This document shows, one piece after another, positions 32,837 through 55,664 of a stretch of 64,000 nt of DNA (the first letter of the stretch is position 1; every line of letters begins with the position of its first letter). The notes beneath the pieces are model-generated. The model ran no database searches and was not told the origin of the DNA. It saw only the letters and a program-made list of their open reading frames with translations. The stretch spans positions 60,785 through 124,784 of the forward strand of contig JAOADG010000004.1 of NCBI GenBank assembly GCA_026417415.1. The letters run 5' to 3'. This DNA comes from a bacterium (GTDB lineage Bacteria; Electryoneota; JAOADG01). Both the position numbers and the translations under genes were made by a program.

Positions 32837-33850
32837 TTAATTTTTTGTTTCACTTAAACTTGTGGAATGTTTGGGCTGAACTTTTTCACTGGGTGAGATA
32901 TAATGTTTTGCGTTGTTTACTGCAATGGCAGCTTCACTAAATCCAGTTGAAATTAATCGGATTTTCCCTGGGTGATAAACTATATCTCCAGCGGCGAAAA
33001 TTCCCGGAATGTTGGTGGACATATCAAAATCAACGACTACGCCGTTTCCGCGGATATTCAATCCCCATTCTTTGATGGGTCCCAAGTTGGTTAAAAAACC
33101 GATAAAACATAAAATCGCATCTACAGGAAAAGTTTCTTCATCACCGGTAACATTATTGACAATGGTTGCTGCCTCGACTTTATCTTCGCCGTGTATGGCT
33201 TTTAATTGATATTCGGTTTTTACGCGGGCTGAAGTTTTCAATAGTTCACTTACATTCATTTCATGGGCTTGAAATTTTTTCATTAAGTGAATTAGTGTTA
33301 ATTCTTTGGCATGAGGAACTAAAGTTAAACCCCAATCCACTGCACTATCGCCACCACCGATGATAAGAAGCCGTTTTCCATAAAATTGTTCAGGATTACG
33401 GATGATATAGTACACACCGCGATCTTCTAATTTTTTAGCATCTTGTATATCAAGTTTTCTTGGTAAGAATGCTCCTAAACCACAAGCGATAAGAACTGAT
33501 TTTGCAAAGAAAAATTCATTCTGATGACTCATTAATTCAAATCCGTTTTGAAATGGACGTACCACATCAATTCTTGTATTTAAATAAAACGATGGGTTAT
33601 ATCGTTCTGCTTGTGTTTTTAAATTTTGAACCAACTCTTCAGCGAAGATAGCTGTAAAACCAGGGACATCATAAATCTTCTTTTTAGGATACAGTGCTTG
33701 AAGTTGACCACCCGTTTGTGCCATACTATCAAATACCACCGTGCTCATTCCACGTAAACCAGCATAGAAAGCAGCATATAGACCGACTGGACCTGCACCC
33801 ACGATGGCAATGTCTAGAAATTGAAATTGAGAATGGTCTCCATCTGGCAT
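32837..33850 (-). CDS. Ferredoxin--NADP(+) reductase, thioredoxin-reductase-like type
   Basis: 337 aa; DIAIVGAGPVGLYAAFYAGLRG, RLLIIGGGDSAVDWGLTL, GIFAAGDIVYHPGKIRLISTGFSEAAIAVNNAKHYI; lacks a redox CxxC. Confidence 0.92.
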   Translation of the reverse strand: MPDGDHSQFQFLDIAIVGAGPVGLYAAFYAGLRGMSTVVFDSMAQTGGQLQALYPKKKIYDVPGFTAIFAEELVQNLKTQAERYNPSFYLNTRIDVVRPFQNGFELMSHQNEFFFAKSVLIACGLGAFLPRKLDIQDAKKLEDRGVYYIIRNPEQFYGKRLLIIGGGDSAVDWGLTLVPHAKELTLIHLMKKFQAHEMNVSELLKTSARVKTEYQLKAIHGEDKVEAATIVNNVTGDEETFPVDAILCFIGFLTNLGPIKEWGLNIRGNGVVVDFDMSTNIPGIFAAGDIVYHPGKIRLISTGFSEAAIAVNNAKHYISPSEKVQPKHSTSLSETKN

Positions 33851-35657: not shown

Positions 35658-36929
35658 TTATTTCATTCCAATCACAATTTTTAGTGTGATCGGCTCATTG
35701 TTTCGCAACACAACCATTGTTACTTCATCACCGGGGTGATGTTGATCTAAAATGGTCATATAATCTTGTAACGAATTCACAGGTTTTCCGTCAAATTCAA
35801 TCACTTGATCACCCGACTGAACACCTGCACGATGGGCAGGTGAATGTTCGGTAGCACCCAACAAAAAAAACCCCTTTTCAGTATTTTTAAAATCCGGAAT
35901 AACACCAACATACACGTGAAACTTGTTGGATCGTTTTGTTACAACTTTTTCTGGGAGAGGTGTAAAAGCAATGGCTTCTTCAATTTGGCTTAATTCAATC
36001 ACCAATGAAGTGACCCATTGCGAGATCATTTCTATCCCTTGTGAATTGATTTTTGTTGCCACATCAGTCGGACGGTGATAATCGGTATGTGCACCCGTGA
36101 AGAAAAATAAAAATGGAATGGATTGACGATAGAACGGCAAATGGTCTCCTGCTCCGAAGCCATCGTTAATTTTGCTTAACTGGAATTGAAAATCTAAATT
36201 CCTTTTCTCTAAAAGCGGTTCCCATTGTGGTGATGTTTTTGTACCATACACAATTAAATTTTTTAAACTATCCAACCTACCTACCATATCTAAATTGATC
36301 ATTGCGACAATGTGAGTATTGGATTGGAGAAATTGTTTCACCAATGCTTCTGAACCTTTCGCGTTCCACTCTTCTGCATCAAATGCAACGACAAGTACAC
36401 TTCGTTTCAATGCATCTTTTTTAGATTGTAAAGAACGTGCAATGGTCAATAACGCTGCTATTCCAGAAGCATTGTCATCTGCACCCGGATGAAGTACAGA
36501 GTCACGTGATTTTAAATAAGATAATTTTCCACCAAAACCAATATGATCAAAATGGGCTCCAATCACAATGTATTCATTTTTTAAAGAAGAGTGATTTCCA
36601 CGAATGATGCCGACTACATTATTGCCTTGTATGGATTGCGTAGATATTGTTGAATCAAGTACACAAGTAAATGGTATCAAAAAATCTTTTTTCCGTACTT
36701 TTGTTTCATGATGATCATTTTTTTGAAAGGGTTCTAATCCTAATTCTTTGAAACGATAACTCAAATAATCTGCAGTGCGTTCAGCACCAATGGTTCCAGC
36801 TGAACGGCCCATGAAAAAGTTAGAAGAGAGAATGGACACTTCTTCCAAAATGGGATCTGAAAATGAGTTTCTACTGATAGCAAAAATGCTAGTCAAGAGA
36901 AAAAAGAAATAGATATATTGTTTATTCAT
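35658..36929 (-). CDS. M28 family zinc peptidase with C-terminal PDZ domain
   Basis: VIGAHFDHIGFG, HPGADDNASGIAALL, FDAEEWNAKGSEALV; C-terminal PDZ: SPAHRAGVQSGDQVIEFDGKPVNSLQDYMTIL. Confidence 0.92.
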   Translation of the reverse strand: MNKQYIYFFFLLTSIFAISRNSFSDPILEEVSILSSNFFMGRSAGTIGAERTADYLSYRFKELGLEPFQKNDHHETKVRKKDFLIPFTCVLDSTISTQSIQGNNVVGIIRGNHSSLKNEYIVIGAHFDHIGFGGKLSYLKSRDSVLHPGADDNASGIAALLTIARSLQSKKDALKRSVLVVAFDAEEWNAKGSEALVKQFLQSNTHIVAMINLDMVGRLDSLKNLIVYGTKTSPQWEPLLEKRNLDFQFQLSKINDGFGAGDHLPFYRQSIPFLFFFTGAHTDYHRPTDVATKINSQGIEMISQWVTSLVIELSQIEEAIAFTPLPEKVVTKRSNKFHVYVGVIPDFKNTEKGFFLLGATEHSPAHRAGVQSGDQVIEFDGKPVNSLQDYMTILDQHHPGDEVTMVVLRNNEPITLKIVIGMK

Positions 36930-37218
36930 GCTGATTTAATTTCTGCTGAATTTTTTCTAAATCTTTTTTTAATCGTCGTATCATTTCTAAGCGGTGTTGA
37001 ACTTCAGTATGAGAAAGATCAAATGCATTTTTTTCCACAAGTTCAGCAACCAATTCCCCTAATGCTAAATAGGCACGATCTAAACGTTGGTTGGCTGCTG
37101 TGAGTGATAATTTCAAACGAGTTAACGATACAATCCGATCGGTTTGATGAAGAATAAAATCAGCAAGGTTTCCTGATTCAAGTTCTTTCTTTTTTGTGGA
37201 TTTCATCAATCTTACCAA
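36922..37218 (-). CDS. Small coiled-coil hypothetical protein
   Basis: 98 aa, overlaps both neighbours by several nt; helical heptad-like sequence. Confidence 0.65.
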   Translation of the reverse strand: MVRLMKSTKKKELESGNLADFILHQTDRIVSLTRLKLSLTAANQRLDRAYLALGELVAELVEKNAFDLSHTEVQHRLEMIRRLKKDLEKIQQKLNQHE

Positions 37219-39836
37219 GTAAAATGATAATCAAGTTGCAAACGAAAACTCAACTCTCTATTGGTGACATGATCACCACCAAAAGGTTTTGCATAGGGTA
37301 ATGTTCGTGGATCCTCATTTGCACGCGAAGGTGGGTTGTTGTTTCTTCTAGCTTGAACATTGGTAAGGGGAAATTGTCGTTCGGATGTAATTTTTGTTTT
37401 GATAGAAAGGCCTTGACCTATACGTGAACCAGTTGCAAAGTACAATCGTAAACCATTTCCATCACGTACATAGAAATCACCTTCTTCGTAATTCCAAAAG
37501 AAACCATCATATATCGTGGCACCACCACCAAACCAAAACGAACGATTTACATGATGTGTAAAATCCACACCAAATGCTTCTGAAGGAGAAGCACTTTGAC
37601 CACTTACAGGTGAACGTCCATTTGGAGAAGTTTCATATATTAAACGTGGACGTGGTGCAAAACGTGTAACAGCGTAGTTATACATCAAACGAATTTCATC
37701 AAAATTAGAGAGTCGTACACTACTTTGTATTCTGCTTTGCAAGGCACGATAATACATTGGGCTTTCGTGATTCAAATAATCTCTGGACTGATCCGACAAG
37801 CGAATGTTGAATCGAAGCGGAAAAATCGGACGATATTGTAAACGTACCACCCAACGATAGTATTCTGCTTGGTCACTGCGGCGCGTCCATTGATCGAGTT
37901 CCCAACTGGTGACCAGCTGTCTCAAGAATTGGTAACGCCCACTAAACATCCATCCGCGTTCAGGTTGTGGTTGAAATGAATTGTCATACAATTGACCCAA
38001 AGTTACGTCTCGCAAATAATATTCGTCTTCTAAAATTGATCCTTTGTACCTTGCGTAATTACTGAAACCGCGGTCAAAGGGATTGTCGTAACCAACATCA
38101 CGATCACGATACAACAACAATACATTCAAAGAAGAATACTGTGCGTAAAGAGAGGTAACAATTCCTTTCGGATCATCTCCCCAACGAAAATAGGAACCAT
38201 CATTTTCTAATTCACCATACTCACCTTGAAAGGAAAAATTGTTGTAAACGGCCTGCCAATCAAAACCATAAACCCGTATCTTTGATTTTGCTTTTTTCCA
38301 AAGTTTACTAGTAGAACGATTTGCATAGCCCAAAAGAATTTCTTGATTGGCGCGATCGTCATTGATTTCATCCACTTCTTTTCCTAATACCAGCGTATTG
38401 CTGTCTAATATCGGTGCGATCGGCCTGTCGTAAAGTGCTTCTACCCAACTAGTACCCAAACGAATGCCTGTAATTGGTAAAATTGCAAGATTACCTGCAA
38501 AAATTGTTTCACGCGTATTGTCTAAATACGTTTGAATACCCGGGTACTTATCTAACAACGTGTCTTCAAGAGCACCATTACTAGGATTAATCCAAGTAGA
38601 ATCCATGGGTGGACGTGAATCGTAGTGAATACGTGGAGATAACACAATAAAACGATTGATACTACCATCTGGGTTGAGTACTGCGTCTTTCCAATCACTA
38701 CTGTACAACATTGTACTCTCAAAAAGTTTTGTGCGTGCTTCAAAAGCTAACCCACGATAGGTAAATTGTTCATTAGATGATAAATCGCCATGAATGCCTG
38801 TTATGTTTTTGTTGTAACCGAATCCCGTGTTTCTGGGTGCAAAATAATCTCCACTTGAAAACACCACACCTTGTCCAAATCCTGCTTGATAATTTCCTAC
38901 AATCAAGCGTTTCAAAGTGATTGGACCGAACTGAAGATACTCACGTTGAAAATAAATTTTACCTTGAGGAAGAGAAATTGAAGCAATTGGATGTTCGTAT
39001 AAATATCGTTCGTATCGCCCTTTATGAGTAGAAATTCCAAACTTCCAATGTCCAAAACCCAATCTTAACTTCACTTGTGTATCCGTTCGATTTTGAGGTA
39101 CCACATCTTCACGAATAGCACTCATATTATCTGGTAGATAAGGGGTATCAAAACTACGTATTTGAAAGAAACCACGAATCTTTTGTGGTGCCTCTACCGT
39201 TTCATAAGTTAAAAATGATCTTGCGTTTGTATAACCCCAGTAAGATAGACCGGGTGTTTGGCGCAATTCACGTTGACTTTGAATTAAATTTCCGCTTTCC
39301 ACTCGTTTACGAATGGCTACTGCATCTACGGGACTTACATTTTGAATATCCGTCAACTCTTCAATGGTGGCAGTATTTACATTGATTGGTTCAAGAATTT
39401 GATCCGCCAATTGATCCGCCAACCCTTCACTAAATCCATCATCGCTAACCAATTGTTCCATCCGATATGCATTGGCTTCACGACGCTGTAAAAATGGATC
39501 GTCTAAAAAAGGTGATCGTACTAGAACTTTACCACGTAATTTTTCCACAGCATTGCGAGAAAGACCGTGAGTGTCAAATAGGTCAAAGAAATTTTCATAG
39601 GGGCCTTCATATAAAATCCGATTACGAATGGATTGAATTTCATCATCCGTTAATCCCAACTGTTTGAGTTCTTCATTCGTTGCTGAATTGAGATCCAGAA
39701 TAGAAGTTGGCTGTGGAGTAGAGGTAATAGCAGGGATTGAACTTTCAGTTGGTTCTTCGCTTCCATATTGAGCAAAACCCAATGGAATACCTAAAGAAAA
39801 AAGAATGCTTAATAAAAGAAGTAATCTAAAAACCAT
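37212..39836 (-). CDS. Outer-membrane beta-barrel protein with N-terminal helix-hairpin-helix motifs
   Basis: Signal peptide; ILDLNSATNEELKQLGLTDDEIQSIRNRI and INVNTATIEELTDIQNVSPVDAVAIRKRV (ComEA-like HhH); long strand-rich region ending FRLQLDYHFTW. Confidence 0.85.
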   Translation of the reverse strand: MVFRLLLLLSILFSLGIPLGFAQYGSEEPTESSIPAITSTPQPTSILDLNSATNEELKQLGLTDDEIQSIRNRILYEGPYENFFDLFDTHGLSRNAVEKLRGKVLVRSPFLDDPFLQRREANAYRMEQLVSDDGFSEGLADQLADQILEPINVNTATIEELTDIQNVSPVDAVAIRKRVESGNLIQSQRELRQTPGLSYWGYTNARSFLTYETVEAPQKIRGFFQIRSFDTPYLPDNMSAIREDVVPQNRTDTQVKLRLGFGHWKFGISTHKGRYERYLYEHPIASISLPQGKIYFQREYLQFGPITLKRLIVGNYQAGFGQGVVFSSGDYFAPRNTGFGYNKNITGIHGDLSSNEQFTYRGLAFEARTKLFESTMLYSSDWKDAVLNPDGSINRFIVLSPRIHYDSRPPMDSTWINPSNGALEDTLLDKYPGIQTYLDNTRETIFAGNLAILPITGIRLGTSWVEALYDRPIAPILDSNTLVLGKEVDEINDDRANQEILLGYANRSTSKLWKKAKSKIRVYGFDWQAVYNNFSFQGEYGELENDGSYFRWGDDPKGIVTSLYAQYSSLNVLLLYRDRDVGYDNPFDRGFSNYARYKGSILEDEYYLRDVTLGQLYDNSFQPQPERGWMFSGRYQFLRQLVTSWELDQWTRRSDQAEYYRWVVRLQYRPIFPLRFNIRLSDQSRDYLNHESPMYYRALQSRIQSSVRLSNFDEIRLMYNYAVTRFAPRPRLIYETSPNGRSPVSGQSASPSEAFGVDFTHHVNRSFWFGGGATIYDGFFWNYEEGDFYVRDGNGLRLYFATGSRIGQGLSIKTKITSERQFPLTNVQARRNNNPPSRANEDPRTLPYAKPFGGDHVTNRELSFRLQLDYHFTW

Positions 39837-40704
39837 AACTAATGCCTACCAGATGTGTAGCAGCGAGCGAAGGATGAGAAACGAAAGTATAATCCATTCG
39901 GAGTTTTGAAAAATTCTTAAGACCAAATCCAAGTGCAACACGATTTGGATTGGAACGAATTCCCAATCTAATATCCAAATAGGGATTGATCTCAAATTCT
40001 GAACCTGCTTTAACGATTTGGTTGCCTCCAAGTGTACGCTCTAACTCAATTCCAGTATATACTCCACGATAAGGAGAATAGCCAATAGTTCCACGTACAA
40101 CACTCGGTAACTCATTTTCAACTACAGATCCCATCGTCGGGCGGTTGAGATTGGTGACATGAAAACCCACAGCGGTTCTTTGCCAAAGTAAACCATACAC
40201 ACCAGCATCAATACCAAAAGCTTGATTACTTCCTAAAGCATGTCCATTCATAGATGTACCAAAAGATTGGGAGTAATACTTTAGAGTATAACCGAATGCC
40301 AAACTGGTCTGAATATCTCTTTGTAGATAAAATGCGTGTGAAAGTGCAAGAGCAGTTTCGTTTGATAAGGAGACGTTCGCATACTTTACACCACCATTGA
40401 GCAAACCAATTCCACCGACTCCATAAGATTTTGGAAGTGGCATTGCAAAGTTTGAATGATAAAGTGTATAAAAATTTTGTTGATATGGTCTTGTGAAAGC
40501 GGCACTTGCACATAAGGATTGGATTGTAACCAAAGCAGCTGGATTTTGAAAGACGTGAGACGGATCACCTGCTAAAGCACTTGTAGCCCCGATTGCACCA
40601 AATCTAGGTGTTGGTGGCTCTACATCAGTAAACACTTGTGAAAGTGCAACATGGGTATAAACAGAAATATGAATGAGAATAAAAAGTATCGTTATTTTTT
40701 TCAT
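39826..40704 (-). CDS. PorV/PorQ-like outer-membrane protein
   Basis: 292 aa; signal peptide, GAIGATSALAGDPSHVFQNPAALVTIQ, strand-rich, C-terminal SYGF. Confidence 0.8.
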   Translation of the reverse strand: MKKITILFILIHISVYTHVALSQVFTDVEPPTPRFGAIGATSALAGDPSHVFQNPAALVTIQSLCASAAFTRPYQQNFYTLYHSNFAMPLPKSYGVGGIGLLNGGVKYANVSLSNETALALSHAFYLQRDIQTSLAFGYTLKYYSQSFGTSMNGHALGSNQAFGIDAGVYGLLWQRTAVGFHVTNLNRPTMGSVVENELPSVVRGTIGYSPYRGVYTGIELERTLGGNQIVKAGSEFEINPYLDIRLGIRSNPNRVALGFGLKNFSKLRMDYTFVSHPSLAATHLVGISYGF

Positions 40705-42674
40705 AACTTAGTTCCAATAACTATAGGAGCAACCGCTTGTTTAATGGTACCATTTTGGTTTGATTGAATTTGCAATAGATATGTACCTAATGGAAGTTTT
40801 CTACGATATTCATCTTTTCCATCCCAAAGAAATTCACCAACACCGACACTGGTTTTATCAATTAAGGTAGCAATAAGTTGACCTTTCATATTGAATATGC
40901 GAAGTATAATTCTACTCCCTGAAGGAGCGCCATAGCGTATGGTGACCTGTTCATTCCAATCCGGTACTAAAACTTTGGCAGGAATCTCAACGAAGGTACT
41001 CACTGCTTCACCTAAACTGCGATCTTGTTCAATAAAATCTTCTGCATAACCTGCTAACATTTGAAAATCGTTGTTGTATTGAGACGCTACGCCGCGAATT
41101 TGAAAGACGCGTCCAACTAACTGAGTCAATGGTAACGAATCTCCACTTGCAACCCGCACTTTTCGTAAATTCATACTATCCCAAATGCGGATGATCATTG
41201 TTCCTGAACCATCATCAATTAACATATTAGTACCACCGCCAACATTTGGATCAACAGAAACAATTCTACCCGTGACCTCTACGAAACTTCCTGATGCATA
41301 ATAAGCAGGATTGCCAGTCCGTGTAAGTTGTCGTTGTAAAGGATAATCACCTGTACGTAATCGTATCGGATTTCTAAGTCCGTATCCAGTATCAATGGCG
41401 GTCATTGATGCAGCACCGCTCACTTGCAATGCACCACTATATTGACTTACTGTAGCATTCATTCGTACTAAATAACCACGTTTTAAATTGGGAAAATTTG
41501 CTGGTCCCGCCGCTTCACTGATGTACAGACCAATGCCGCTACTTGTATCTGCAAGATAAGCGTCAGTTCTCATACTACCACTGGAGGTTGTTCTACCTTG
41601 AATGTAAACAACGACACCCTCTACTTGAACAGTTCGGTTCATTAAGGAATCTGGGTTGTCAATGATAAATTGAATAGGGACAATATTGTTGGGAAAGTTA
41701 ACTGTAAAGGTACGTTCTGCAGTGGATGCAATAGCACCTAAAGCATCTTTGGCTAAAATCCGATAACGTACGGTTGTACCCCACCACCAAGGTCCCATAG
41801 TCATTTCATATTGTTGGTTTTCAATAAGAGGAATTGGAATCGAATCTGTAGGTAAGTTATTCACGATCCGATTCATCCAAACCGCAACTACACCATCTTC
41901 ATCAGTTATTGTAGCACGAACGGTAACACGTTGGTTAGGAAGAGGTTGTACTGGATCCTGAACCACATTGGTAATAATTGGAGGATTGTTTCCGTAAACT
42001 TCAAAATCACTATCAGATCTCGGTTCAAGTTGATATACGTTGCTAGAAATTTGACGTAGATTCCCTTTTACCCACCGAAACGAATCTCCAACAGCATAAG
42101 TTTGATTCCATCTTCCTCCACTACCATAACCTTTTACGTTGATTTGATGAGTACCATCGGAAATGGTGATTCCATCAGGTAAAATAGCAGATACTGAAAC
42201 GTTTGGTACACCGATAAACATTCCTTCATAAGGTTCAGCAGTGCTTTCATTAACCAATAAAGCAATGGGTACAACACACGGAACAACAGACCAAACATTG
42301 CTTGATATTACACGAACGCTATCGTTGGTGAAAACTGCCAATTGGGTTTGGTTATTGGATTCTTGGACTGTGCCTTGAATTAGAATGGAATCACCAACTG
42401 CGAGGGTCAGTGTACGATTGGTTCTTACGAATAAACCGTGATAACCACTTGTGTCCCGATCTTGGATAAAAAAACTTCTCGTTCCACCAGCACCAGCATT
42501 TATTCCAATTCCGGTTACAATGCCACCAACCTGCAAACGTTGATTTACGTAGGGCGACGGTCCACCAGGAATGAATGGGTTGTACTGTATGTCATAGACA
42601 GTATAAACTTGTGCATAAATAAAACTTGTATGAACAAGGATGTACAGTAAAGATAAAAATGTGCGTGTTTTCAT
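40701..42674 (-). CDS. Secreted multi-OB-fold protein with FlgD-like/T9SS-type C-terminal domain
   Basis: 657 aa; OB-like YVNQRLQVGGIVTGIG...SFFIQDRD...GDSILIQGTVQE and NRTVQVEGVVVYIQ...FVEVTGRIVSVDP...LIDDGSGTMIIRIWD; C-terminus SRIILRIFNMKGQLIATLIDKTSVGVGEFLWDGKDEYRRKLPLGTYLLQIQ. Confidence 0.82.
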   Translation of the reverse strand: MKTRTFLSLLYILVHTSFIYAQVYTVYDIQYNPFIPGGPSPYVNQRLQVGGIVTGIGINAGAGGTRSFFIQDRDTSGYHGLFVRTNRTLTLAVGDSILIQGTVQESNNQTQLAVFTNDSVRVISSNVWSVVPCVVPIALLVNESTAEPYEGMFIGVPNVSVSAILPDGITISDGTHQINVKGYGSGGRWNQTYAVGDSFRWVKGNLRQISSNVYQLEPRSDSDFEVYGNNPPIITNVVQDPVQPLPNQRVTVRATITDEDGVVAVWMNRIVNNLPTDSIPIPLIENQQYEMTMGPWWWGTTVRYRILAKDALGAIASTAERTFTVNFPNNIVPIQFIIDNPDSLMNRTVQVEGVVVYIQGRTTSSGSMRTDAYLADTSSGIGLYISEAAGPANFPNLKRGYLVRMNATVSQYSGALQVSGAASMTAIDTGYGLRNPIRLRTGDYPLQRQLTRTGNPAYYASGSFVEVTGRIVSVDPNVGGGTNMLIDDGSGTMIIRIWDSMNLRKVRVASGDSLPLTQLVGRVFQIRGVASQYNNDFQMLAGYAEDFIEQDRSLGEAVSTFVEIPAKVLVPDWNEQVTIRYGAPSGSRIILRIFNMKGQLIATLIDKTSVGVGEFLWDGKDEYRRKLPLGTYLLQIQSNQNGTIKQAVAPIVIGTKL

Positions 42675-52595: not shown

Positions 52596-54023
52596 ATGAA
52601 GCATTGTATTTCCCGTCAAATCAATTCGACCCTTGTCGTCGGACTGTTCATTTTTATCCTGTTTGGTCAAACAGGGTTGGTTATCGCGGAAACCAATGAT
52701 GCGCGTTTAACGCAAAGGATCACTTTGGATGCCGATGATGCATATTTACCGAATGTGCTCGCAATCATGGCAGAAAAATCCGGTTTTAACATTGTTACCG
52801 GTCCAGGGGTATCTAAAAATGAAAAACTCACCATTAAATTAAAAGATGTCCCAATTGAGGAAGCAATGAATCTTGTTGTCCGTTCTGTGGGACTTTCTTA
52901 TGAGTTGGTGGGGAACAGTTTCCTTGTGGCACAGCCAGAATACATTCGTTCTGATGCAGGACTTACCAGTTATGTATTAAACCTACAGTATGCCGATCCG
53001 CAAGCGGTTAAGCAAATTCTTGCACAGATGAAAGCGACCGTAGAAGTGGATAGTGGTAGCGGAAAAGTCCTTGTTATTGCTTCACCCAAGGTTATGAGTG
53101 AAATTAGACGCGTGGTTGAAGCCATTGATGTACCATCCCTTCAAATTATGTTGGCTACCCGTGTGGTTGAAGTGGCTGTGGAAAATGAAGAAGAGATGGG
53201 GATCAATTGGGGACGATTGTCACCCTTTGAAATGAAAATTGCTGAGGGCGGTGGATCCTCCATTAAAATAGATCGCTTTGATGAATTTGGTGTGTTTTAT
53301 CGTCAACAACCGATCTTTGATTTTGCATTGGATTGGTTGTTGAGACACAACAAAGCAGAAGTGTTGGCAAATTCACAAGTGGCTACAATGAACGGTCGTT
53401 CAGCGGAATTAAGCGTTGTGGATGTATTCCCTTATCTTTACTCTACTACCCAACCAGTATTCAATCCGAATCAAACCAATGCGATTGCTACAGTTCCTAC
53501 AGTCACCTTAGAGCGTGAAGAGGTAGGTGTAAAACTAAAGATTACTCCAAAAGTGAATAGTGATGGATACATTACTACTACGGTCACTTCTGAAGTATCT
53601 TCAATTTTTAGTTTTATTGGTAGAAATCAAGACATTCCTTGGGTGGTCAAAAGACAGGCCACCACTACTATCCGTGTAAAAGATGGCGAATCCATCGTCA
53701 TAGGTGGTTTATTAGGGATAACACGAAAGAATACCAAACATAAAGTTCCATTCCTTGGAGATATTCCATATTTTGGTGGACTTTTCCGACATAGCTCGGA
53801 ATCAGTAAAGAAGACCGATATGATTATTGAAGTGACTCCAACCATATTAAAAGATTCTCAAACCTTTACCATGACACCAAGAGTGCAAAAGGCATACGAT
53901 TATTTGGATCGTGAACTGAGCGGTGAAAACAACGGTACTGAAAATGGTGAAAATATCGAGAATGGAAAAGAAGCACCAAAAGTGGATTATGAGGAAAATG
54001 AAGAAGTAAAACCATCTGAATAA
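52596..54023 (+). CDS. pilQ: Type IV pilus secretin PilQ
   Basis: STN/N-domains (GPGVSKNEKLTIKLKDVPIEEAMNLVVRSVGLSY) and secretin domain (VGVKLKITPKVNSDGYITT, DGESIVIGGLLGITRKNTKHKVPFLGDIPYFGGLFRH). Confidence 0.95.
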   Translation: MKHCISRQINSTLVVGLFIFILFGQTGLVIAETNDARLTQRITLDADDAYLPNVLAIMAEKSGFNIVTGPGVSKNEKLTIKLKDVPIEEAMNLVVRSVGLSYELVGNSFLVAQPEYIRSDAGLTSYVLNLQYADPQAVKQILAQMKATVEVDSGSGKVLVIASPKVMSEIRRVVEAIDVPSLQIMLATRVVEVAVENEEEMGINWGRLSPFEMKIAEGGGSSIKIDRFDEFGVFYRQQPIFDFALDWLLRHNKAEVLANSQVATMNGRSAELSVVDVFPYLYSTTQPVFNPNQTNAIATVPTVTLEREEVGVKLKITPKVNSDGYITTTVTSEVSSIFSFIGRNQDIPWVVKRQATTTIRVKDGESIVIGGLLGITRKNTKHKVPFLGDIPYFGGLFRHSSESVKKTDMIIEVTPTILKDSQTFTMTPRVQKAYDYLDRELSGENNGTENGENIENGKEAPKVDYEENEEVKPSE

Positions 54024-54038
54024 ACGGTTTTCTTACGG

Positions 54039-55664
54039 ATGATTAAATTAGGTTCTTTTCTTTTTTTAATATTCATTTTGGTATATCCGTCTCTTGCACA
54101 AAAGCAAATTGAGATTGATACTCTAAGAAGTAGTTCAACACAGCTCTTTACGCAAAATGTTTTTGAGGGTCCGATTGATCCAGATAAATACATCATCGGA
54201 CCAGGAGACCAGTTAACTTTACAAGTGATCGGTCCCTTAGAAAGTTCTTTGACAATTCTTGTTAGCCCAGAAGGGATTGCCCAAATACCGACGGTTGGCC
54301 AAGTGAATGTGGTGAATAAAACCCTATCTGATGTGGAAAATGCTATTGTAAAGTTAGCACAACCGAAATATCCGAATGCTGAATTAAAGGTGACTTTGCA
54401 AAAAGCACGAATGTTTTATGCGTCCATTAGCGGTGCAGTAAAACGTCCCGGACGGTACACAGTTTCACCTTCATTAAGAGTATCGGATTTGCTAGAATTA
54501 GCAGGGGGTGCTGAATGGAATTTAACACCACCAGATACGACTCCTGATGGTAAAATTATTCGGCTACCTTTAGAAATTGCACCGTTAAGAGGACTGCAAT
54601 TGGTACGTCAAAATGGAAAAGACACTGTTAGAGTGGATATTGAACGTTTTTTCCGATTAGGAGATATTGAGCAGAACCCTTTTTTACTAGATGGCGACCG
54701 TTTGTTTGTTCCGTATTGGACAGATAAAATCGGAACCATTCGCATTGAAGGGGCAGTATATAAACAATTATTGGTACGATATTTGCCCACTGACTATTTA
54801 AGGAACATTTTCAATTTATCGGGTGGGTTGTTGCCGGATGCTCGGGGCGATGTCCAACTCATTCGGTATAATGAAAAAGGTGAAAGAACGGTTCAGACGT
54901 TTTCTCACGAATGGGTTCTTTCAGACGATTTAGGACCCAAGTTACAGCCGAATGATTTTATCTTTGTGCAATACAAAAAAGAAGTTGCAAGGCGTGGTTC
55001 GGTGATTGTTGAGGGCGAGGTACGTTTTCCTGGGGTTTATGCTGTTGATGAAAAGACCATTCGCTTATCAGACATTCTTGAGTTAACCGGCGGTTTTACT
55101 GAAAAAGCCAACTTATCTCAGATTGTAGTGGTACGAAGATCGTTTATGGTACAACCCGATCCTGAATTCAATCGTTTGTATGGGATGGCGCGAGTAGATA
55201 TGAGTTGGAATGAAAATGAGTATTTGAAAGCGAAACGAAGGGATGTAGAACCGAGAATTGTGGTTGATGTACAGAATATTTTGACCCAAGGAAAAGGTTC
55301 TATTCACGATATCGTTCTTTTAGATGGTGACGTAATCCGTGTACCACAAAAAAATTTATCAGTCAAAGTATTGGGTCAAGTTGTGCAACCGGGCCTAATC
55401 CCTTTCAAAGAAAATGAAAATTACAAATACTATATAAAACAAGCAGGTGGGTACACGTTTAAGGCAAGAACAAGTAAAATCCGAATTATCAAAGCCAATT
55501 CTGGGCAATGGCTTAAACCGGGTTCTACAGAAATTGAAGCAGGAGATACCATTTTTATTCCGGAAAAACCTGAAGTTGATTGGTGGGCTTCTTCAAAAGA
55601 TATAATCTCTGTGATTTCTCAAATTGCAACCATAGCATTAGTTATTTATACAATAAATAAATGA
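54039..55664 (+). CDS. SLBB / polysaccharide-export (Wza)-like protein
   Basis: YIIGPGDQLTLQVIGPLESSLTILVSPEGIAQIPTVGQVNV then multiple SLBB repeats (YASISGAVKRPGRYTVSPSLRVSDLLELAGG; VIVEGEVRFPGVYAVDEKTIRLSDILELTGG); C-terminal TM. Confidence 0.9.
   Translation: MIKLGSFLFLIFILVYPSLAQKQIEIDTLRSSSTQLFTQNVFEGPIDPDKYIIGPGDQLTLQVIGPLESSLTILVSPEGIAQIPTVGQVNVVNKTLSDVENAIVKLAQPKYPNAELKVTLQKARMFYASISGAVKRPGRYTVSPSLRVSDLLELAGGAEWNLTPPDTTPDGKIIRLPLEIAPLRGLQLVRQNGKDTVRVDIERFFRLGDIEQNPFLLDGDRLFVPYWTDKIGTIRIEGAVYKQLLVRYLPTDYLRNIFNLSGGLLPDARGDVQLIRYNEKGERTVQTFSHEWVLSDDLGPKLQPNDFIFVQYKKEVARRGSVIVEGEVRFPGVYAVDEKTIRLSDILELTGGFTEKANLSQIVVVRRSFMVQPDPEFNRLYGMARVDMSWNENEYLKAKRRDVEPRIVVDVQNILTQGKGSIHDIVLLDGDVIRVPQKNLSVKVLGQVVQPGLIPFKENENYKYYIKQAGGYTFKARTSKIRIIKANSGQWLKPGSTEIEAGDTIFIPEKPEVDWWASSKDIISVISQIATIALVIYTINK

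Follow-up and report, generated by a model that had tools for sequence, protein, structure and literature searches.

The locus

The DNA considered here, referred to as the window, is a stretch of 64,000 nucleotides (nt) from a bacterium of the phylum Electryoneota (contig JAOADG010000004.1 of assembly GCA_026417415.1, which comprises 2.2 Mb in 40 contigs). Five successive open reading frames on its minus strand were designated A to E (Table 1), and the first three, encoding a putative surface protein (A) and two outer-membrane barrels (B and C), are the main subject of this report. The five frames are tightly packed, neighbours overlapping by 4 nt (A/B), 11 nt (B/C), 7 nt (C/D) and 8 nt (D/E). 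The C/D overlap assumes that D starts at the TTG at 37218; with the in-frame ATG at 37206 there is a gap of 5 nt instead. N-termini resembling signal peptides were recognised by eye in A, B, C and E, and D has none.

An earlier reading of the window, made from its letters without database searches (the sequence-only reading), had taken the five genes as one envelope operon, possibly a surface assembly for binding or taking up DNA. The frames lie where it placed them and are packed as described, but gene order is conserved for A-B-C only and not for D and E, and for that reason the five-gene unit is not upheld. The synteny of A-B-C, the nuclease-type OB domains of A, and the linkage or co-occurrence of the set with a 5'-nucleotidase, EEP nucleases and a FadL-like barrel are the grounds for a nucleic-acid role. 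We give about an even chance to the proposal that A-B-C is the surface and outer-membrane part of a system foraging extracellular nucleic acids or nucleotides.

Table 1. Positions in the window of genes A to E and of the regions recognised in A and C (aa, amino acids)
Feature	Position	Strand	Description
Gene A	40701..42674	-	657 aa; predicted secreted surface protein, several OB-like domains, putative C-terminal type IX-type sorting domain
A, aa 50-157	42204..42527	-	matches the N-terminal, pre-catalytic part of ExeM/NucH nucleases (NF033681, 6.5e-13); weakly DUF5689
A, aa 465-541	41052..41282	-	OB-fold nucleic-acid-binding domain PF01336, 2.2e-9
A, aa 589-657	40704..40910	-	C-terminal domain of the FlgD_ig/Por_Secre_tail kind; putative type IX sorting signal
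Gene B	39826..40704	-	292 aa; outer-membrane barrel resembling PorV/PorQ, predicted to serve A specifically
Gene C	37212..39836	-	874 aa; outer-membrane barrel with N-terminal tandem HhH region
C, HhH unit 1, aa 47-107	39516..39698	-	hairpin without the GhG pattern
C, HhH unit 2, aa 149-210	39207..39392	-	hairpin N-V-S-P-V-D-A
C, predicted barrel, aa 220-873	37218..39179	-	about 24 strands; AlphaFold2 model and Foldseek
Gene D	36922..37218	-	98 aa (TTG start); helical, without signal peptide; neighbour outside the conserved set
Gene E	35658..36929	-	423 aa; M28 peptidase and PDZ, metal-site motifs present; neighbour outside the conserved set

Conservation of gene order

Relatives were examined in 39 genomes of the phylum, the class being represented by 2. 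C was found in 17 of the 39, the window's own genome included, and in 14 of these 17 (again counting the window's) A, B and C occur together and mostly overlap; the 14 belong to families f1, f5 and f6. The C locus of G034 is cut at a contig edge. A single-sequence search of genome contigs with C returned nothing, and loci emerged only when an alignment was used. A profile made from that alignment recovered 39 loci in named records, including Calditrichota, Marinimicrobia and metagenome-assembled genomes labelled Krumholzibacteriota; some of the 39 duplicate the phylum genomes. A search of plasmids gave no match. Open reading frames were called at 44 C loci outside the window: B adjoins C at 39 of them, the gap being at most 30 nt at 38 and the genes overlapping at 31, and A adjoins B at 36, no more than 30 nt apart at 31.

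Conservation of gene order in relatives, suggested earlier as a check, is thus found for A-B-C and not for the two genes that follow. Elsewhere D occurs only in G001, the nearest relative and of the same family, and none of the other A-B-C loci examined, that of G001 included, has E. The best homologues of E elsewhere are M28 proteins about 31-37% identical to it, at other loci, and M28 peptidases are present in every genome of the phylum. E was assigned by a domain scan; D, a coiled coil, has no confident family match. The genes after C in several loci of the phylum are housekeeping genes (ksgA, recO, glyS). Upstream of A, on the opposite strand, a large gene was seen in nine phylum loci (L021, L022, L028, L029, L034, L036, L039, L043 and L070); where it was scanned (L022) it has TPR and SLT lytic-transglycosylase domains.

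The predicted surface protein A

The sequence-only reading had described several OB-like domains in A, and this description was borne out: the two matches listed in Table 1, to PF01336 and to the pre-catalytic part of ExeM/NucH, are each found in all 13 A homologues scanned. DUF5689 (PF18942) is matched at 3.3e-6, just under its cut-off. At the C-terminus FlgD_ig scores 3.7e-6, above the cut-off, and Por_Secre_tail 0.0015, below it; the two are found in 12 and 8 of the 13 homologues, respectively. Neither the 13 A proteins nor the A-type proteins scanned from other phyla matched the EEP catalytic domain. Lamin-tail domains are present in A-type proteins of other phyla, as they are in ExeM. The OB-type region of ExeM, which contains two putative OB folds, is essential for its nucleolytic activity and has been proposed to contact the substrate (PMC6085458).

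In its predicted structure (pLDDT 81.5) A consists of beta domains arranged in a chain. The top Foldseek match to this model, a tandem-OB protein bound to double-stranded DNA, was not used as evidence, as the TM-scores were low (0.18/0.27), and the other matches were mostly generic immunoglobulin/fibronectin chains.

Nuclease and nucleotidase genes linked to C

Outside the phylum of the window, C is followed at 24 loci (within 30 nt at 20 of them) by a gene for a FadL/TodX-like barrel, here called F, and at 21 loci (19 within 30 nt) F is followed by a further gene, N, so that F and N stand directly after C. In Calditrichota and some others N is a 5'-nucleotidase, with a metallophosphoesterase domain and 5_nucleotid_C. 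In Marinimicrobia an EEP nuclease-type domain takes the place of 5_nucleotid_C, and the phosphoesterase motif GNH[DE]F has changed or disappeared; next to N there is usually a second EEP gene, downstream of it. At L063, L065, L071 and several similar Marinimicrobia loci there is thus an apparent swap of enzymatic activity at the operon position of N.

In the phylum of the window F and N are found at a separate locus, followed in several genomes by an A-like gene. The genome from which the window comes has them outside the window, at G000:C20:88106-92278 (L101:107-4279), with one gene between them; N is a 5'-nucleotidase here and its phosphoesterase site is intact. The intervening gene is ferredoxin-NADP-reductase-like and by eye resembles a gene of the window near A-B-C (32837-33850). 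The same genome encodes two secreted EEP-family proteins elsewhere (L103:3213-4523 and L104:4544-5776, on G000 contigs 8 and 13); as judged by eye, one has a type IX-like C-terminal domain and the other ends in a fibronectin-like region.

Among the 39 phylum genomes, 16 of the 17 that carry C have an F orthologue, compared with 0 of the 22 that lack it. Orthologues were taken as matches with an expect value of 1e-76 or better, the next best being 5e-25. Fisher's exact p for the co-occurrence is 4.5e-10, or 3.6e-7 when the genomes used in the F alignment are left out, both values ignoring shared ancestry. The mixed family f3 has two genomes with both C and F and four with neither. At its two loci where C stands without A and B (L026 in G016 and L031 in G012), a SPOR-like C-terminal region was seen by eye in the adjoining gene in one case; both genomes keep F.

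Gene B and type IX secretion

Against the PorV/PorQ family model NF033709, B scores 6.9e-7 and 29 bits and does not reach the cut-off of 90. The PorV_fam model is matched by all 13 B homologues (all below 0.01, best 5.7e-16), PorV2 by 7, PorQ by 5 and PorP/SprF by 2. As B falls below the cut-off and yet all its homologues match, it is a distant relative of the family and not a canonical PorV, and the earlier description of a PorV-like barrel holds in that looser sense. A profile search of the PDB with B gave no match.

SprA, the type IX pore, is encoded in the genome of the window (SprA_N, 1.7e-38, in a frame of 2182 aa); of the 39 phylum genomes 35 have it, as does each of the 19 further C-bearing genomes searched. 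The type B cargo of Bacteroidetes is retained on the cell surface by a matching PorP-like barrel, for instance SprF; for type A cargo, PorV is the proposed carrier (PMC9143113). By analogy we infer that A and B resemble a cargo-barrel pair in which the barrel is PorV-like.

The helix-hairpin-helix region of C

C contains both features that had been noticed in it, a helix-hairpin-helix (HhH) region and a barrel. HHH_3 is matched at 2e-9 over two stretches, comEA models at 3e-5 to 8e-5 and ComEA structures at 0.003-0.012. The AlphaFold2 model has helices to about residue 205 and then some 24 long strands reaching the C-terminus (mean pLDDT 65). Foldseek placed the FimD usher first, with FepA (a TonB-receptor) and porin barrels also among the best matches, at expect values of 1e-7 to 1e-5. 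HhH-plus-barrel proteins are also held by Bacteroidota, which serves here as a lead only.

The presence of HhH units had been offered as an argument for DNA binding, with lack of the GhG hairpin residues named beforehand as the result that would speak against it. In alignment to ComEA structures the second hairpin of C, N-V-S-P-V-D-A, falls opposite G-I/V-G-P-x-K-A. Across 45 C homologues it reads N-[VL]-S-x-x-D-A, compared with G-I-G-P-K-K-A in ComEA, and the residues N166, S168, D171, A172 and V173 do not vary among the 45. In the first unit P and S/T replace the hairpin glycines in nearly all homologues. The region from aa 47 to 210 carries a net charge of -10 here and of -8 on average over the 45, compared with +4 for the short ComEA-like HhH protein of the same genome. 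In Vibrio cholerae ComEA, K63 enters the minor groove; transformation is lost with K63E, and cells with G60V or G60E cannot be transformed either (PMC3879209). At the positions of C aligned to K63 and G60 there are an invariant Asp and an invariant Ser.

With the hairpin glycines and the lysine lost and the region acidic, C would not be expected to bind DNA as ComEA does, and the HhH region was discarded as a DNA grip. The hairpin of residues 166-172 (39321-39341 of the window, minus strand) is identical or nearly so in the 45 homologues, which come from several phyla, and unlike that of DNA-binding HhH proteins. A conserved but different hairpin suggests a different function, probably protein contact; the degenerate region, predicted to lie in the periplasm, is most likely a docking site for a protein and not a grip on DNA. 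An HhH annotation should accordingly not be equated with DNA binding.

Interpretation

The foraging system proposed above would work as follows. A would be exported through SprA and stay attached to the surface by way of B, its own PorV-like partner; there it would bind extracellular nucleic acid through its nuclease-type OB domains. Secreted EEP enzymes would cut the polymer, C and/or F would let the products through the outer membrane, and N would remove phosphate, so that nucleosides and phosphate could be taken up. Published DNA-degradation loci in which nucleic-acid-binding/lamin-tail nucleases occur together with nucleotidases and transporters have been linked to the foraging of DNA by bacteria of marine sediments (PMC8289736). 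What survives of the DNA-binding or uptake assembly first suggested is a surface assembly linked to nucleic acids, by synteny, by the OB domains of A and by the linkage to F and N; the HhH argument falls away, as does membership of the peptidase and the coiled-coil protein.

Several observations weigh against the foraging proposal. G012 and G016 have C without A or B beside it, G029 has C without F, and the co-occurrence of C and F is partly a matter of shared ancestry. The OB segments of A are near neutral or weakly charged, a catalytic domain was not found in A, and nucleic-acid binding by A is a prediction from sequence. The model of C is of moderate quality. The families concerned are also broad: 5'-nucleotidases of the N type cleave UDP-sugars as well, FadL-like barrels usually carry hydrophobic compounds, EEP enzymes include non-nucleases, and OB, DUF5689 and lamin-tail domains are found in other settings.

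It is possible, though we think it on the unlikely side, that A-B-C is a general envelope or type IX module with no nucleic-acid role. A would then be an adhesin or scaffold, B its secretion and anchoring partner, and C a barrel concerned with surface assembly or with another nutrient; the OB and HhH folds would serve contacts with proteins or sugars, and F and N would be co-selected for phosphate or lipid reasons. The acidic HhH region with its lack of DNA-contacting residues fits such a module, and so does the putative type IX-type C-terminal domain of A encoded beside a PorV-like barrel, which may be compared with SprB-SprF and PG1035-PorP (PMC9143113). Several A-B-C loci of the phylum, moreover, adjoin housekeeping genes and not nucleases. 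An envelope module does not readily account for the distribution of F (16/17 genomes compared with 0/22), for the operons of other phyla that join the set to genes for 5'-nucleotidase and EEP nucleases, or for nuclease-type OB domains in every A protein tested.

A stronger version of the nucleic-acid role, which we regard as rather unlikely, makes C a new kind of outer-membrane channel, in which a barrel of about 24 strands is joined to a periplasmic docking domain derived from HhH. Together with A, as an OB protein exported by the type IX route, and B as its PorV-like carrier, it would bring DNA or oligonucleotides into the periplasm without a secretin, in several phyla.

Uptake for natural transformation is improbable. 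In this scheme A would catch DNA, C (with B) would pass it through the outer membrane and ComEC would import it into the cell. Transformation of Riemerella anatipestifer depends on a surface protein with DUF5689, on an adjacent barrel and on a protein with HhH (PMC8459023), a set which the parts described here parallel, the weak DUF5689 match of A included, and the genome of the window has ComEC and a short ComEA-like protein as well as a type IV pilus whose secretin is of the PilQ type. However, the hairpins of C are without the residues that ComEA needs, with Asp where K63 aligns; the HhH protein of Riemerella is described as periplasmic and not as a barrel; and the enzymes found as partners are catabolic, some of them of a kind that would break down incoming DNA. 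ComEC is present in nearly all genomes of the phylum, with or without C, and thus gives no co-occurrence signal.

The type IV pilus noticed earlier in the window is present. In the pilus region the gene of its PilQ-type secretin is directly followed by that of a polysaccharide-export/SLBB protein, the two spanning 52596-55664. A link of A-B-C to the pilus or to classical competence was considered and rejected, as the pilus has its own secretin, the short ComEA-like protein is separate, and ComEC is near-universal in the phylum. Least credible of all is a single five-gene envelope operon in which E processes the co-encoded surface proteins; it is favoured by how closely the five genes are packed in the window, but it was rejected because D and E are not conserved with A-B-C, E being missing from the other loci examined and M28 peptidases being general in the phylum.

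If the foraging proposal is true, A-B-C marks the use of extracellular DNA or nucleotides in Marinimicrobia, Calditrichota and related, mostly uncultivated phyla; such compounds are a major source of phosphorus in sediments. It would also define an uncharacterised outer-membrane family, the HhH-barrel proteins, and a second type of type IX cargo-plus-barrel pair.

Comparison with known systems

A literature search, which left most subscription journals outside its coverage, found no description of the A-B-C gene set. Each part is of a known kind, and it is the combination, together with the HhH-barrel family and its degenerate hairpin, that appears to be undescribed. C shares with ComEA a tandem HhH region of similar length, detected by profile; it differs in that the region is fused to a barrel, is acidic, and has the GhG and DNA-contact lysines replaced in 45/45 homologues. 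The Riemerella transformation genes (PMC8459023) provide the same three kinds of parts as A-B-C, a likeness by description, but their HhH protein is described as periplasmic, the genes lie at separate loci and the barrel is of the CarboxypepD-regulatory type.

As in the SprB-SprF and PG1035-PorP pairs, a predicted secreted protein with a putative C-terminal domain of the sorting type is encoded beside a barrel of the FadL superfamily. B, however, matches PorV/PorQ in all homologues and PorP/SprF in only two of the 13, and the C-terminal domain of A is FlgD_ig/type A-like. The ExeM/NucH/YhcR nucleases combine lamin-tail, OB and EEP domains; A matches their OB part in 13/13 homologues, and A-type proteins elsewhere carry lamin-tail domains, whereas the EEP domain was not found in A and lies in genes of its own in Marinimicrobia, as it does at other loci of the window's genome. 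The DNA-degradation loci of Ca. Izemoplasma and relatives (PMC8289736) likewise bring together nucleic-acid-binding/lamin-tail proteins, nucleotidases, nucleases and transporters. They belong to a different phylum with a different envelope, and in the present system the corresponding place is taken by a putative type IX-type surface protein with two or three outer-membrane barrels.

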